40,642 nucleotides of DNA, from IMG/VR virus record IMGVR_UViG_3300034684_000463, positions 1 through 40,642 of that record; one strand, written 5' to 3'. Under the pieces are notes generated by a model. The model worked only from the letters and a program-made list of their open reading frames with translations, made no database searches and was not told the origin of the DNA. The DNA is from a virus. Of the stretch, positions 3,097-9,154 are shown in pieces. Each line of letters starts with the position of its first letter. Within the stretch, counting starts at the first letter, position 1. A program made the translations under genes and the position numbers.

Positions 3097-3430
3097 CAAT
3101 CGAACCCCTGCTCCTGTCGGTTGCAAGGGGCGGCAGATCCTGTATCGACCGCATCATGTCGATCGACCACGGGACCAGCTCCAGGAGACCTGCGCGCAGG
3201 CTGGCGTGGTTCTCATCCGTGCCCTCGATCATCGACGACATGACGCAGACCAAGCCCACCAGCAGGCCACCGGCGACGTCTTGCAGCGCCTCGCCGTCCG
3301 GGGCGTCGATCTTGTCGAGGGCATCGATTGCCGCCGTGACGAGCAGCTTGCGAGCCTCCTCTGATCGGCGGTCGCGCGGATCTGCCGGGTCGAAGGGGCT
3401 TGCGCCGTAGAGCTTGCCAACGTCAGCCAT
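3089..3430 (-). CDS. Hypothetical helical early protein
   Basis: This 113-residue protein of unknown function begins MADVGKLYGASPFDPADPRD. It is followed by three or four amphipathic helices, the central one rich in Leu/Val/Met. Its start codon lies inside the 3' end of the ParB-like gene and its end overlaps the next gene, so it is translated as part of the leftward operon. The possible pattern resemblance to the downstream protein suggests a duplicated pair. Nothing in the sequence gives a catalytic role. Confidence 0.7.
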   Translation of the reverse strand: MADVGKLYGASPFDPADPRDRRSEEARKLLVTAAIDALDKIDAPDGEALQDVAGGLLVGLVCVMSSMIEGTDENHASLRAGLLELVPWSIDMMRSIQDLPPLATDRSRGSIDG

Positions 3431-5300
3431 CGCTGCCCCCTTCCTCGCCGCCCTTGGCGGGCCGCTTCCACCGCAGCTCGTCGGGGAGCCAATCGTCGAT
3501 CTTCGCGGCCTCGGCGCGGCTCAGGCCGATGGCCTCGCGCACGCTCATATCGTCGAAGAGCGCCTGCAGCCTCTTGGCCTTCTCCGCGCGCTTCAGGCCG
3601 CGATAGGCCGAGTTGTCGAGATCGATCTTGTCGGCCGGCACCAGCCGCTCCCAGATGCTGTCCAGGTAAGCGCTGCTGGTGCGGCCGAGGAAGCCGGCTG
3701 CGGTGGGCGACCAGACGGACCGGGTGTTGACGTCGAGCTGCGCGGCCAGCGTCTCGGCGAGGGGGCCGGTGCCTTGGAAGGTGCGGGCGAGCGCCTCGGC
3801 CAGCACCTTGTTGCGGTGCTTTTCGCCAAGATCGCGGAAGGCTTCGAACGCGGCCGGCGTCGGATCCTCACCGCGGCTTTCAGCCTTGGTGACGGCGGCC
3901 AGCCGTTCGCTGATCGTCGTTCCCTCGGGCTTCGTCGGGCTGATGCTCGGCGGCGAAATGCTGACCGCCAAGGGCTTCGACCACGGGCTCAGCCCACCCA
4001 TCAGAGTCCATGCCAGAAGGTCGAGCATCAGCTTGGGCTGATCCATCAGGCGCGTCTGCAGCGCCAGCAGCTTGATCGATTTCAGATCATCCTGCAGGTT
4101 CTGCGGGAATGCCGCGGCGTCCTCTTCCGCCCCCTTCTTGCTGGTGACCTGGCCATCGCCGGCGCCGGCATCATCCGCCACATCTTCGCGCCGGCGATAC
4201 GCTCGGTCGACCTGGAAGCCGTCGCGGTCGACAAAGCAGAAAATGCCGCCAGTCTCTCGGTCCACGTCGGTGAAGTCGCCTTTCATCCGCTCCTCGAGCG
4301 CATCAAGCCGGTCTTCATCTTCCTTGCTGAGCTCGTCCGACCCGGAAGTCAGCCGATCATATTCCTCGGCATCCGCTTCGGTCAGTTCGACCGGCTCACG
4401 CCGGAGCCACTCCATATTTTGGACCAGCGTGTAGCTGCGGTAGCTCTCGGCGGTGAACTCCGCCCACTTCCAGCCTTCCTCAACGCGAAGCGCTTCGGTC
4501 TCGGCCTTGCCCTTCTCGATGAAGAGCTCGTTGAGCAGCTTCTCGTCGTGCAGGTAGCCTGATTCCGTGAACAGATCGCTCTGATAGGTGCCGCCGGCCG
4601 CGACGTAGGCTTCGAGCCCGACATAGCGGGCCCGGCGGTCGCTCAGCGGCACGGTATCGGGCGTCAGCTCGCGGCCCAGCATGTCCGGCCGGGTATCCCG
4701 GCCCCGCACCGCCTGCAGCGCCTCGAGACAGCGCGCCTCGGTCGGCGTAATGGTCAGAACCTTGGCGATCTCATAGGTGATCTCGTTCGCGCGCAGCGCG
4801 TCCAGGACCGGCGCCGGAAGATCCGCCAACCGCAGCCGGCGCTCCACATGCGCCTCCGATTTGGCGAAGCTGCGCGCGATCATCTGCGCCGAGGATCCGC
4901 GCTCGCGCATGGCGGCATAGGCCCGGACCTCGTCCGCGGGGTGCAGTTCGGACCGAGCCGTGTTCTCGGTGCCCGACCAGGCGATCGCACGGTGCGGATC
5001 GCTGGTGACCTTCACCGGCACGGGATCGATGCGCGTCTGCCCTGTCTTGCGGCTCCAGCCTTCGCCGGCGAGCTTCTGCAGGGCGCGCAGCCGCTTGCCG
5101 CCCCCGACGATCTCGATCGAGCCTGCGGCGGTCTCGATGCCAATGAGGTTCTGCAGCAGGCCGGCGATGGCGATGCTCTCGGCCATCGCCTCGATCTCTT
5201 CCTCGGCGACCTGCTGGCGGGTGTTGAGCGGCGACAGGGCGAGATCCGCGAGCGGGATCAGGCGCAGGTCGCCGCCGATGATGGGTGCTTGGTCATTCAT
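3423..5300 (-). CDS. Large ParB-like DNA-binding protein
   Basis: This 625-residue protein has an N-terminal ParB/Srx-type domain at about residues 10-110: LIPLADLALSPLNTR, then IAMAESIA-type helices, GSIEIVGGGKRLRALQKL, and ENTARSELHPADEVRAY. A KorB/ParB-like HTH follows (residues about 120-190, GSSAQMIARSFAKSEAHVER). The remaining 400 residues are unassigned and include an acidic, charged middle (about 300-400). In plasmids, ParB binds centromere-like sites and hydrolyses CTP. In phages, long ParB-like proteins of this kind occur in early operons, sometimes as nucleases or regulators. No parA is present, so a simple partition system is unlikely. I chose the start at 5300, which overlaps the upstream gene by 8 bases. 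The longer frame to 5396 adds arginine-rich shadow sequence. Confidence 0.85.
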   Translation of the reverse strand: MNDQAPIIGGDLRLIPLADLALSPLNTRQQVAEEEIEAMAESIAIAGLLQNLIGIETAAGSIEIVGGGKRLRALQKLAGEGWSRKTGQTRIDPVPVKVTSDPHRAIAWSGTENTARSELHPADEVRAYAAMRERGSSAQMIARSFAKSEAHVERRLRLADLPAPVLDALRANEITYEIAKVLTITPTEARCLEALQAVRGRDTRPDMLGRELTPDTVPLSDRRARYVGLEAYVAAGGTYQSDLFTESGYLHDEKLLNELFIEKGKAETEALRVEEGWKWAEFTAESYRSYTLVQNMEWLRREPVELTEADAEEYDRLTSGSDELSKEDEDRLDALEERMKGDFTDVDRETGGIFCFVDRDGFQVDRAYRRREDVADDAGAGDGQVTSKKGAEEDAAAFPQNLQDDLKSIKLLALQTRLMDQPKLMLDLLAWTLMGGLSPWSKPLAVSISPPSISPTKPEGTTISERLAAVTKAESRGEDPTPAAFEAFRDLGEKHRNKVLAEALARTFQGTGPLAETLAAQLDVNTRSVWSPTAAGFLGRTSSAYLDSIWERLVPADKIDLDNSAYRGLKRAEKAKRLQALFDDMSVREAIGLSRAEAAKIDDWLPDELRWKRPAKGGEEGGSDG

Positions 5301-5703
5301 GGCTGGCTGCCTCGCCGGCGGGCGCGGTCGGTTCGATCTCCTCCTGGTTACGCACCTGTGAGAAAACCCACGGCACAAAGACCAGGCTGTGCGCATCCTG
5401 CCAGTCGTCGCAGGCGATCTTCAGGCGCGCCAGAAGGTCCGCCTTCTGCTCGTCGCTGGCCCCGAAGATCGGGTCGCCGTCCTCGCCCTTCTGGTCGTCG
5501 GCGTTGTCATCGAACTGCGCCAGCACACCATCGGCGTCGGGGAGGAAGTCGGCGAGCCTGAGCGGATCCTGCCGGGCTTCGCAGATATAGCCGCGCTCAC
5601 CATCCAGCGCAGCGATCGCCGCTTCGCGGGTCTCGTGTTCGTCGGAAAAGTACTCGTCGCTCTGGCCGGAATACCATTTCCAGCCCTTGTCGTTGTCGGT
5701 CAT
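5293..5703 (-). CDS. Hypothetical acidic early protein
   Basis: This 136-residue, strongly acidic protein (MTDNDKGWKWYSGQSDEYFS...) has an excellent ribosome binding site, GAGGAGA, seven bases before the ATG at 5703. It is the first gene after an intrinsic terminator and a structured element, so its expression may depend on read-through or antitermination. The sequence ADFLPDADGVLAQFDDNADD and the Trp-rich N-terminus are distinctive, but I cannot assign a family. Its acidity would fit a DNA-mimic or an inhibitor of a DNA-binding protein, which is only a guess. Confidence 0.8.
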   Translation of the reverse strand: MTDNDKGWKWYSGQSDEYFSDEHETREAAIAALDGERGYICEARQDPLRLADFLPDADGVLAQFDDNADDQKGEDGDPIFGASDEQKADLLARLKIACDDWQDAHSLVFVPWVFSQVRNQEEIEPTAPAGEAASHE

Positions 5704-6655: not shown

Positions 6656-6750
6656 TGGCCGACGCCTGGATCGCGCATCTCCACGTTGAAGTGCAGGCAG
6701 ATCAGCAGCCAGAGGATGGCGACGAGGGGGAAGATGGCGAGCGCGGTCAT
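6652..6750 (-). CDS. 32-residue membrane peptide
   Basis: This short gene is missed by length-limited gene finders. It reads MTALAIFPLVAILWLLICLH then FNVEMRDPGVGQ. Residues 3-20 form a single transmembrane helix with a short polar C-terminus. Its support is its context: the ATG at 6750 overlaps the stop of the gene before it as ATGA, and its own stop overlaps the ATG of the gene after it the same way. It therefore fills the operon gap exactly. The function is unknown. It is one of three small membrane proteins in this operon. Confidence 0.65.
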   Translation of the reverse strand: MTALAIFPLVAILWLLICLHFNVEMRDPGVGQ

Positions 6751-6965
6751 TTCACCTGCTCCCGGATGTCGGCGATGATCGCAGTGAGCTCGCCTGCCGC
6801 AGTCGCGTCGGCCTCGGTCGCCGGCTCATAGGTTTCGAGGCCCAGCTCGGCACAGGTCAGGAGGGTGATCAACTGCGGGCCGGTCAGGCCTGCGATGGCG
6901 AAGGTCGGACCTGGCGGGCTGAGGGGCGTGTTGAACTGGACGCTGGTTTTAAAGGGCGGTGCCAT
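6747..6965 (-). CDS. First gene of the leftward early operon, unknown function
   Basis: This 72-residue protein begins MAPPFKTSVQFNTPLSPPGP and continues with a helical, acidic region (LTGPQLITLLTCAELGLETY, then TAAGELTAIIADIREQVK). I chose the ATG at 6965 because GGAG lies seven bases upstream. An ATG at 7001 would place the start inside the operator. It is the promoter-proximal gene under the two left operators, the position of lambda N. I see no arginine-rich motif, so an N-like role is not supported. Confidence 0.7.
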   Translation of the reverse strand: MAPPFKTSVQFNTPLSPPGPTFAIAGLTGPQLITLLTCAELGLETYEPATEADATAAGELTAIIADIREQVK

Positions 6966-6997
6966 GATGGTCTCCATCTTGGGGATAGAGACAGATT

Positions 6998-7013
6998 GCA
7001 CGCCTTGGCGTGC
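6998..7013. promoter_or_regulatory. Left operator 1 (perfect dyad)
   Basis: GCACGC-CTTG-GCGTGC is a perfect six-base inverted repeat with a four-base spacer. It extends to eight pairs with different spacing and is flanked by TTGCA and TGCA. The same half-sites recur in the repressor-cro interval at 8606-8621, so both clusters probably bind the same repressor. It lies 33 bases upstream of the ATG at 6965. Read leftward, a TTGCGA and a poor AATCTG box flank it 17 bases apart, so it may cover the leftward promoter. The promoter boxes are weak. Confidence 0.8.
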
Positions 7014-7028
7014 ATCGCAAGGGAAAAA

Positions 7029-7044
7029 ACACGCGGTAGCGTGC
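7029..7044. promoter_or_regulatory. Left operator 2
   Basis: ACACGC-GGTA-GCGTGC matches the operator consensus in 11 of 12 half-site bases. Its centre is 31 bases, about three helical turns, from left operator 1. A pair of sites on one DNA face fits cooperative repressor binding. The remaining bases of the 7045-7202 interval hold a terminator and the leader of the gene at 7203, and I see no other gene there. Confidence 0.7.
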
Positions 7045-7104
7045 GGCCAGGCTTCGTCTGGCGATTCGCTGTGCTACTCTGCAGGTGCGCAGCTTGTGGA
7101 CATG

Positions 7105-7127
7105 AAAAAGCCCGGCTTGGGCCGGGT
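7105..7127 (-). terminator. Leftward intrinsic terminator insulating the left operon
   Basis: CCCGGC (7111-7116) pairs with GCCGGG (7121-7126) over TTGG. Read leftward, the stem is followed by CTTTTTC. It lies between the immunity region and the left operators. Repressor transcripts that cross the gene at 7203 in antisense would stop here and would not enter the leftward operon in a lysogen. Confidence 0.8.
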
Positions 7128-7202
7128 CTAGAGTGCGATGGATTAAGTGAATGACCAAGCAGGCGTGTTAAGAACGAACGATGTTCCACTTGGAGGGATC
7201 AA

Positions 7203-7835
7203 ATGAGCGACGAAGCACTGAAACTGCTCTCTGCACCGTGGGACACCATTCTCACGCTTTCGTCTGGATACATCGGGTACTACGTCGCCCATGTCGGGAT
7301 CAGAGAGCACCATCGCGGGATCGACCAGGTGTTTCGCGTTGTTTTATATGGGTTCTTCGGAATTTTTGTTTACTACTGGCTTCGTTACAGCTTCGACGTA
7401 GGCATCCTGAGTGCCTCGTTGGCATCGCTCATCATGACCTTCGGTCTTGGTGCTTTCTGGAGGCGGTGGGGAAGAGCCCAGCTGGAAAAGGCGCTTCGGG
7501 CAGGCAGGATCAGCCAATCCGATGATACGCCAACGGCTTGGATGGCGCTTGCCGAAGCAGGTGATCATGCGGTCGCCACCCAGCTAAAGGTGCGATTGAG
7601 CGATGGAACTAGGCTTTTTTGTGAGAATTTGGCAGCCTTCAAGAGCCATCCTAACGGCCCGTGCGTCCTTGGGGGGAATGGAGATGTGTTGATCTACGTG
7701 ACGCACGAAGCCAAAGGATCCTCGAAGGAATATGCACGGATCGCCTCGATAGATGATGAGTTGCACGGCACGATGATCACTTACGTGCCGCGCGAGCAGA
7801 TCGCGAGAATTGAGTTCCGAAGAATGAGACGATGA
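7203..7835 (+). CDS. Membrane protein in the immunity region (DUF6338-like layout)
   Basis: This 210-residue protein has a strong GGAGG ribosome binding site six bases before its ATG. Residues about 15-35 (TILTLSSGYIGYYVAHVG) form a first hydrophobic segment, 45-62 (VVLYGFFGIFVYYWLRY) a second and 65-85 a third. A soluble domain from residue 95 follows, with DTPTAWMAL, LKVRLSDGTRLF, VLGGNGDVLIYVTHE and a final TYVPREQIARIEFR. This order of GYIGY near the start, GREHH, PTAWD-like, a DG-strand and a terminal I-x-x-I-E-F strand resembles DUF6338 from memory. It sits between the two operator clusters, convergent with the repressor gene. In lambda, rex occupies that place and excludes other phages. 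A lysogenic exclusion role is inferred. Confidence 0.8.
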   Translation: MSDEALKLLSAPWDTILTLSSGYIGYYVAHVGIREHHRGIDQVFRVVLYGFFGIFVYYWLRYSFDVGILSASLASLIMTFGLGAFWRRWGRAQLEKALRAGRISQSDDTPTAWMALAEAGDHAVATQLKVRLSDGTRLFCENLAAFKSHPNGPCVLGGNGDVLIYVTHEAKGSSKEYARIASIDDELHGTMITYVPREQIARIEFRRMRR

Positions 7836-7868
7836 TCAGTCGTCAGAGGGGGGCGGCGGGGGATGGCT

Positions 7869-7888
7869 GGAGCCTCCGGCTCCCGTTT
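7869..7888 (+). terminator. Hairpin after the 7203 gene
   Basis: GGAGCC (7869-7874) and GGCTCC (7878-7883) form a six-pair hairpin over TCC, followed by CGTTTCG. The T-run is short, so it is a weak intrinsic terminator or an mRNA-stabilising hairpin. It is placed 34 bases after the stop codon of the membrane-protein gene. Confidence 0.45.
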
Positions 7889-8039
7889 CGGGCTTGTGAT
7901 TATTCTGGGGTGTAGATGGGATGTAGTTCTTTTCTGAATGCCGTGGAATTTCTTGCTTTGGGGTGCCGCTGCTCTCTTTAGTCAAGGTCCAACCTCCTCA
8001 TGTTGCAGAAAAATCGTCTCTCATCAGTGCCTTGAAGGA

Positions 8040-8130
8040 TATGATGACTGCTGCCGGGCCATCATCATACGAGTTCACCCGGGTTGTCTCCGCAGGTTGA
8101 CCGATGCGCGGATTGCCGCGTAGGGTGAAC
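8040..8130. other. Structured noncoding segment between the 7203 gene and the repressor
   Basis: The 350-base gap 7836-8185 has no convincing gene. Within it, TATGATGA (8040-8047) pairs with TCATCATA (8062-8069). GTTCACCC (8073-8080) pairs with GGGTGAAC (8123-8130) and encloses a small hairpin CGCGG-ATTG-CCGCG (8107-8120). Read leftward, these follow the repressor stop and could act as its 3' end. A small RNA is also possible. The flanking bases 7889-8039 are AT-richer and show nothing I can support. Confidence 0.4.
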
Positions 8131-8185
8131 GGATTGAGAACATCGGGGGGTGTGGTGGTTGATCTGGGCGCGATTAGGATGCTTC

Positions 8186-8545
8186 TCATTTGGCGTTCGC
8201 TCCCGGCGGATGCTCGGGAAGAGGGCCTTCGGCTTCTGGCCGATCTTGCAGAGCCTCTAGAACAGACAGGGCTTGGCCCCTCACTTCCGGGCGAATTCGG
8301 CTCGCCACGGCTAGAAACCTCAGGTCGTCCTCGGAAGCGCGGATGCCCGTGAGGACATAGAGCGCAGACTGCTTGCCCAGCACGTCAAGCAGCCGGGCAA
8401 GGCGATCAGAGCCCGGCTCCTTCCCATCCTTGAGGAATTGCTGCACGTAATTCACACCCAAACCGGCCGCTACGCTTATCGCACGTGCGCTCCTGCCGTC
8501 GGTGCTGATCGCCTTCTGCAGGCGCGTAACCCAGTCTTTTTCCAT
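8186..8545 (-). CDS. CI-like repressor, HTH domain without peptidase domain
   Basis: This 119-residue protein has an XRE-type helix-turn-helix at residues about 6-56 (RLQKAISTDGRSARAISVAA, GLGVNYVQQFLKDGKEPG, RLARLLDVLG). A short helical C-terminus follows (EDDLRFLAVASRI and EVRGQALSVLEALQ). It lacks the S24 LexA/CI autoproteolysis domain, whose Ser/Lys residues and length are absent. RecA-stimulated self-cleavage is therefore not expected. I chose the ATG at 8545. The frame to 8674 would run through the operators. It is divergent from the Cro-like gene, with three operator dyads between them, which is the main support for its role as the lysogeny repressor. Confidence 0.85.
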   Translation of the reverse strand: MEKDWVTRLQKAISTDGRSARAISVAAGLGVNYVQQFLKDGKEPGSDRLARLLDVLGKQSALYVLTGIRASEDDLRFLAVASRIRPEVRGQALSVLEALQDRPEAEGPLPEHPPGANAK

Positions 8546-8558
8546 GCTCAATTTGCTA

Positions 8559-8574
8559 GCACGCTGGTTCGTTC
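8559..8574. promoter_or_regulatory. Right operator 3 (repressor-proximal)
   Basis: GCACGC-TGGT-TCGTTC has one perfect and one degraded half-site (10 of 12). Its centre is 23 bases from the next operator. It lies 13 bases upstream of the repressor ATG, where a bound protein could switch off the repressor's own promoter, as lambda OR3 does. Confidence 0.6.
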
Positions 8575-8581
8575 GGCGCAT

Positions 8582-8597
8582 GAACGTTATGGCGTGT
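8582..8597. promoter_or_regulatory. Right operator 2
   Basis: GAACGT-TATG-GCGTGT matches the consensus in 9 of 12 half-site bases. Its centre lies 23 and 24 bases from its two neighbours. On its own it would not be called. The regular spacing in a three-site array is the support. Confidence 0.6.
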
Positions 8598-8605
8598 ATT
8601 GACGC

Positions 8606-8621
8606 GCACGCCAAAGCGTGC
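8606..8621. promoter_or_regulatory. Right operator 1 (perfect dyad, cro-proximal)
   Basis: GCACGC-CAAA-GCGTGC is a perfect dyad with the same half-sites as left operator 1. It ends 12 bases before the proposed cro start. The flanking sequence TTGCAC read leftward could be the -35 box of the repressor promoter, with AATACA 17 bases on. The boxes are weak, so promoter positions stay uncertain. Confidence 0.8.
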
Positions 8622-8633
8622 AAACCATCCGCC

Positions 8634-8852
8634 ATGGAACAGCCTCTCCTCACCGAAGTCGAACGCTTCATCACCGCGACCGGCCTGTCTGATCACAGGG
8701 CTGGGATGGTGCTCTGCAAGAATGGTAAGCTTGTCGAGCGTCTCCGGGCTGGTCGGCGCATCTGGCCTGAGACCGCTCAGATGGTGCGTGATGCAATCGC
8801 GCGCGAGACCGCTGCGCGCTGTGCGCCTGAAGCAAGCGAGGCGGCCGAATGA
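8634..8852 (+). CDS. Cro-like small DNA-binding protein
   Basis: This 72-residue protein (MEQPLLTEVERFITATGLSD...) has the compact helical shape of a Cro-type HTH. ERFITATGLSDHRAGMVLCK and GKLVERLRAGRRIWPETAQM would form helices 2-3 and the following turn. It is the first gene rightward of the operators and divergent from the repressor, the usual place of cro. I chose the start at 8634 because upstream ATG codons (8580, 8589) fall inside operator 2. No good ribosome binding site precedes it, so translation may be leaderless or start elsewhere. The identity rests on position and helical pattern. Confidence 0.7.
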   Translation: MEQPLLTEVERFITATGLSDHRAGMVLCKNGKLVERLRAGRRIWPETAQMVRDAIARETAARCAPEASEAAE

Positions 8853-8926: not shown

Positions 8927-9154
8927 ATGTCCCATACCAAAGTTTTTGACCCGCGCGGTTTCCGCGCGCGTTTCGCCGATCTCTGGGCCGAGTTCCTGAG
9001 GGCGAACTACCGCAATCCCGAAGAGGTCTCTGTGGCCTACGGGGTGCGCTTTCAGACAGCAGTCAATTGGTGGAACGGGTCCAACCGCCCCAGCGGCGAC
9101 GTGGTTGCGCTGGCTGGGCGCAGGTTCACCGAGTTCCTGGAGAAGCGCGCATGA
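8927..9154 (+). CDS. Early HTH regulator (CII-position)
   Basis: This 75-residue protein has a helix-turn-helix reading EEVSVAYGVRFQTAVNWWNG followed by SNRPSGDVVALAG. Its Trp-rich recognition helix resembles those of phage and plasmid copy regulators. I chose the ATG at 8927 because AGGAGA lies seven bases upstream. An ATG at 8849 that overlaps the cro stop is the alternative and adds 26 residues. It is the second gene of the rightward operon, where lambda has cII. That functional parallel is positional only. Confidence 0.7.
   Translation: MSHTKVFDPRGFRARFADLWAEFLRANYRNPEEVSVAYGVRFQTAVNWWNGSNRPSGDVVALAGRRFTEFLEKRA

Follow-up and report, generated by a model that had tools for sequence, protein, structure and literature searches.

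A lambda-like operator layout around a 119-residue repressor in the probable immunity region of a temperate siphophage

Do the OL/OR architecture of a phage switch and the control of PRM depend on the C-terminal domain of CI at all? The question is raised by a 40,642-bp virus record (the window, meaning the whole stretch analysed), which encodes an integrase, ParB-like and primase/helicase-like proteins, a terminase, a portal protein and a Clp-type protease. The locus described here is very probably the immunity region of a temperate siphophage, in which a lambda-like switch is run by a repressor of 119 aa, far smaller than CI and unrelated to it. Its spacing-conserved two-cluster operator plan, shared by a wide range of mostly uncharacterised phages, is apparently undescribed; no description of the operator family was found in the literature searched, a body to which most subscription papers did not belong. 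In a study of Brucella phage BiPBO1, in silico operator prediction was reported to be impossible (PMC4729917). The immunity region of poorly annotated alphaproteobacterial phages can be located by a simple rule, which calls for two operator clusters with fixed spacings, an operator in the promoter spacer, and TGnTA 6–8 nt before the repressor ATG.

Operator dyads of the window

The first-pass annotation had described two perfect copies of the dyad GCACGC-N4-GCGTGC and three diverged ones, and all five are present where it placed them. The perfect copies lie at 6998 (GCACGCCTTGGCGTGC) and 8606 (GCACGCCAAAGCGTGC), with no mismatch in either; the diverged copies lie at 7029 (ACACGCGGTAGCGTGC, one mismatch), 8559 (GCACGCTGGTTCGTTC, two) and 8582 (GAACGTTATGGCGTGT, three), and the spacings of 31, 23 and 24 bp are likewise confirmed. 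Two perfect dyads were found in none of 300 dinucleotide shuffles of the window, and any 6-4-6 dyad arm recurring within 2 kb in 7 of 300. At up to three mismatches the pattern is not enriched across the window (61 found against ~78 expected), so weak copies are not significant on their own.

Scoring with a matrix from the OR1 and OR2 sites of relatives separates four strong dyads from a weak one at 8559 (Table 1). It had been predicted that a motif scan would return only these sites; in the window part of that scan, the best unrelated place reached at most 5.9 bits. The four strong dyads are thus firm, their chance origin being ruled out by the shuffles and the relatives, while the fifth is supported by its position and by one close relative (an equivalent at the identical 23-bp spacing in L045/L004).

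Table 1. Features of the switch region, with positions in the window.
Feature	Position	Strand	Description	Score
First leftward-operon gene	6747..6965	-	~72 aa, function unassigned, GGAG ribosome site; inferred start	
PL	6992..7020	-	-35 TTGCGA (7020-7015), 17-bp spacer with OL1, weak -10 AATCTG (6997-6992)	
OL1	6998..7013		Perfect dyad GCACGCCTTGGCGTGC, within -35/-10 spacer of leftward promoter PL	17.0 bits, matrix without OL training sites
OL2	7029..7044		ACACGCGGTAGCGTGC, 31 bp upstream of OL1	17.5 bits
Terminator-like hairpin	7111..7126	-	CCCGGCCCAAGCCGGG followed by CTTTTT; pattern only	
phrog_12870 protein	7203..7835	+	210 aa, function unassigned, between OL and OR	1.8e-53
Repressor	8189..8545	-	119 aa, ATG 8545, N-terminal XRE-type HTH, no S24 domain	
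PRM extended -10	8553..8561	-	TGCTAGCAA, ends 7 nt before repressor ATG (8545)	
OR3 (weak)	8559..8574		GCACGCTGGTTCGTTC, overlaps TG of PRM extended -10	7.6 bits
OR2	8582..8597		GAACGTTATGGCGTGT, centre 44.5 bp upstream of repressor ATG, putative PRM activation position	19.9 bits
PR	8599..8627	+	-35 TTGACG (8599-8604), spacer with OR1, poor -10 AAACCA (8622-8627); predicted start ~8634	
OR1	8606..8621		Perfect dyad GCACGCCAAAGCGTGC, occupies 17-bp spacer of PR	20.0 bits
Cro-like HTH protein	8634..8852	+	72 aa, ATG 8634, four predicted helices	

Conservation of the two-cluster layout

Relatives were sought with the repressor and the Cro-like protein in IMG/VR, named phage and plasmid records. 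About 30 viral contigs with relatives of either protein carry sites of the ACGC-N4-GCGT type; these loci are not all independent and include several near-duplicate groups. A Sphingomonas plasmid match (L070), which carries a different dyad (TGTGTGAT/ATCACACA), was excluded from the counts. When all loci were scanned with a symmetric matrix trained on OR1 and OR2 only, counting as a pair two sites of at least 13 bits each, a second pair outside OR was found in 23 of 30 loci and in none of 150 shuffled loci, and every such pair was spaced 29–31 bp. Among the relatives, OR1 and OR2 are 22–25 bp apart and OL1 and OL2 29–31 bp apart; the OL–OR interval, 1.6 kb in the window, ranges from 0.6 to 5 kb. 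Examples are the contigs L004 (sites 9795/9818/9842 and 7657/7688) and L010 (5188/5212 and 6568/6599), Synechococcus phage Yong-M2-251 (11446/11470 and 16440/16470), and a plasmid-borne prophage region of Roseicitreum antarcticum (L069), in which the OR sites are 24 bp apart and the two OL sites 29 bp. The OL pair is weaker in L044 and L047. Of the 14 stretches returned by a scan of IMG/VR for the OR2 variant ACACGCNATAACGTTC, four are flanked by repressor and Cro homologues. Each of these has a pair at OR and another at OL, and two (L055 and L063) were new. The other ten have neither repressor/Cro genes nor a site pair.

An OL/OR arrangement with the repressor and Cro genes in divergent orientation, as proposed, is conserved in many relatives, and its operators lie within the spacers of PL and PR. 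The claim of three right-hand sites stands for their positions and spacings and for the strong sites at 8582 and 8606; the site at 8559 is weak and is not general, OR3 in relatives lying 16, 17 or 23 bp away or not being found, and it is missing in many. Alignment of the relatives' promoters shows OR1 occupying the stretch that separates TTGAC from the -10 of PR, and OL1 doing likewise in PL on the opposite strand, a plan for PL that is common to 26 aligned loci. The left-hand pair does front the leftward operon, as had been suggested, and its layout is kept in relatives. A consensus promoter scan of the window matched neither PL nor PR, the -10 hexamers of which are poor. In most relatives (L024–L053) A-tracts lie directly upstream of OL2; these could be UP elements for PL, or for a looped PRM as proposed for lambda. 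Leftward transcription from the repressor gene could be stopped short of PL by the terminator-like hairpin in the window.

In L033 (7877–8001) the OL pair adjoins OR1 and a repressor homologue was not found; the locus looks like a derivative that has lost the repressor interval. In Yong-M2-251 (OM868082.1, 11269–11842) the repressor and Cro genes are unannotated, short opposite-strand ORFs being listed instead. The Synechococcus host label is possibly doubtful, given that the plasmid carriers with a name belong to the alphaproteobacteria.

The repressor and the control of PRM

As had been noted from its size, the repressor is unlike lambda CI: at 119 aa it has an XRE/lambda-type HTH and is without the S24/LexA-like C-terminal domain, for which no match was found. 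Its structural model (pLDDT 88.9) is all-helical with seven helices, residues 1–66 forming the XRE-type HTH and residues 72–100 two further helices, followed by a disordered tail. The HTH_3 match is weak (E 0.023), and a weak S24 match in the relative L048 (E 0.0015) lies below the cut-off. The best folds are controller proteins, SinR and P22 c2; profile searches of solved structures and fold searches gave weak HTH-class matches only. Among these, SPC32H Rep (PDB 5d4z, 5d50) and C.Csp231I share an HTH with a short helical C-terminus, at E-values of 0.0086 and 0.014, with no homology shown beyond the HTH class. Two degenerate-peptide searches of 84,980 cellular genomes with the repressor returned no match, and so no host prophages by that route. 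With no CI/LexA-type domain, the repressor lacks the means by which lambda is known to achieve cooperativity, looping and RecA-triggered cleavage.

The geometry around the repressor start is close to that of lambda, in which the OR2 centre lies at about -42 relative to PRM. In 26 of 28 loci the repressor ATG lies 42.5–44.5 bp from the OR2 centre; in 20 of 22 it follows the end of the hexamer of a PRM extended -10 (TGnTA) by 6–8 nt. A Shine–Dalgarno-like motif was found at the repressor start in none of 22 loci and at the cro start in two of 22. The repressor mRNA is therefore predicted to be leaderless, and that of cro also looks leaderless. A transcript starting at the repressor ATG would put OR2 at lambda's OR2/PRM position, and on sequence geometry OR2 appears placed for PRM activation.

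A dimer of the 119-aa repressor would bind the ACGC-N4-GCGT-type dyads. At OL1 and OR1, between the -35 and the -10, it would block PL and PR, and with them the leftward early operon and the cro operon; at OR2, some 43 bp upstream of the point where its own, probably leaderless, mRNA begins, it would most likely activate PRM via a contact with sigma, in the manner of lambda CI. The Cro-like protein would read the same dyads, and here probably prefers OR3 and OR2, thereby turning PRM off. Covariation supports the view that both proteins read the dyads. Residue 32 of the repressor, which directly precedes the recognition helix, is Asn in every aligned member with ACGC operators and Gly in Atu_ph08 (L007), the operator dyad of which is ATCCTC-N4-GAGGAT; the NGRLVERLR helix of the Cro-like protein is altered where the dyad is a different one (L007, L051 and L052). 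The outliers are few, and the Asn32 covariation comes from a single repressor.

Homologous Cro-like genes accompany other dyads in L051, L052, L054, L007 and L070 (GTAGGG, GCGGGA, ATCCGC, ATCCTC and TGTGTGAT, respectively). These dyads lie in similar promoter positions, so that the layout is constant and the specificity changed; the repressors of L051 and L052 are longer and of a different type. Downstream of cro, at the position of lambda cII, lies a conserved 75-aa protein (8927–9154 in the window, 4396–4623 in L004) with no Pfam match.

Paired sites at fixed spacing suggest pairwise cooperativity, and an OL–OR loop would be possible. It is the fixed spacings, the one line of evidence here, that point to dimer–dimer contacts; because OR and OL do not share one spacing, looping is a possibility here and not a finding, and without a CI-type dimer–dimer domain cooperativity would have no known basis. 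An alternative of real weight, if somewhat short of probable, is that the dyads are operators at which each dimer acts alone, repressing PL and PR sterically with neither cooperativity nor a loop, and that OL2 and OR2 do no more than extend the occlusion or, for OR2, activate PRM. It accords with a repressor that has no S24/CI-type C-terminal domain, and with the 933W repressor, which is reported to be non-cooperative at adjacent sites (PMC3317979); moreover, one fixed dimer–dimer contact would be a poor fit to spacings of both 24 bp (OR) and 30 bp (OL). However, two-site clusters with spacings kept within 2–3 bp over diverged phages, and with intervals of 0.6–5 kb between them, exceed what steric repression would need.

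A broader proposal built on cooperative binding is tentative and, taken whole, rather doubtful. It holds that a widespread class of switches, found mainly in alphaproteobacterial phages, has repressors of ~100–140 aa without a CI-type oligomerisation domain, which would form cooperative looped OL/OR complexes via another contact, with pair spacings of 24 bp at OR and 30 bp at OL and with leaderless repressor and Cro mRNAs. If true, the OR2/PRM geometry would be convergent with lambda, preserved through changes in the type of repressor and in the operator sequence.

Two further readings give dyads another role. That OL2 is an intrinsic terminator is very unlikely: on the minus strand the hairpin GCACGC-TACC-GCGTGT is followed by TTTTTT, a T-run which lies between OL2 and the -35 of PL, and the site is accordingly terminator-like in the pattern listing of the window, but relatives keep the dyad and its 29–31 bp distance and not the T-run, many having upstream A-tracts instead, and this reading was rejected. 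That the dyads are parS centromere sites, likewise dyads, of the ParB-like protein encoded at 3423–5396 is more improbable still and was also rejected, since the sites go with promoters and not with the parB gene: they sit in promoter spacers next to the repressor/Cro pair, and occur also in L069 and Yong-M2-251, in which the annotated left-operon stretches covered contain RecT and no ParB-named gene.

Known switches and the OL–OR interval

The operator reading brings the locus close to lambda in its divergent repressor and cro genes, PR and PL that each contain an operator, an OR2 placed as for PRM activation, a repressor mRNA predicted to be leaderless, and accessory genes between OL and OR, which in lambda are exclusion genes. 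The OR1–OR2–OR3 spacings of lambda are 24 and 23 bp, as in the window. It differs from lambda in its 119-aa repressor without a CI C-terminal domain, in its unrelated operator sequence, and in its clusters: lambda has three sites in each, whereas here OL has two, 29–31 bp apart, and OR3 is weak or absent. In lambda, OL and OR are 2.3 kb apart and are bridged by octamers and tetramers, with loop-enhanced activation of PRM (PMC3708714), and the cI mRNA is leaderless (PMC3017554).

Other phages share part of the plan. In the enterobacterial telomere phage PY54, cI and cro have both been mapped as leaderless mRNAs, as is predicted here; unlike the present locus, its Cro has one binding site, and the passages of the paper covered describe no paired OL cluster (PMC4488713). 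Rhizobium phage 16-3, also of an alphaproteobacterium, has PL and PR under its C repressor (PMC3694467), and gave no match to the window repressor in a tblastn search of the phage collection at E 0.01. Phaeobacter prophages carry hth/xre-luxR-luxI modules, in which a small HTH gene is divergent from an XRE gene with lysis/lysogeny promoters; there the XRE gene is followed by luxR-luxI, and the main text of the preprint does not use the word operator (PMC13345283). LuxI family matches were absent from 23 relatives' records, in which the control likewise matched nowhere.

BstA is found downstream of repressors elsewhere, in a region known as a mosaic hotspot, and prophage defence genes may be sought in the OL–OR interval, following the examples of lambda and BTP1 (PMC8585504). 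The phrog_12870 gene of the window occupies the position of lambda rexAB. In several relatives the interval is an accessory slot with genes that, judged by their matches, are defence or toxin–antitoxin-like: SocA/Panacea-type genes in L034 (5941–6558) and L039 (6371–6907), BstA in L040 (4790–5719), and in L042 (3520–4815 and 5422–6465) a RelA/SpoT-domain protein matching PDC-S33 together with a PD-T4-6-like kinase. The interval of L038 contains DUF3800/DUF7946 genes.
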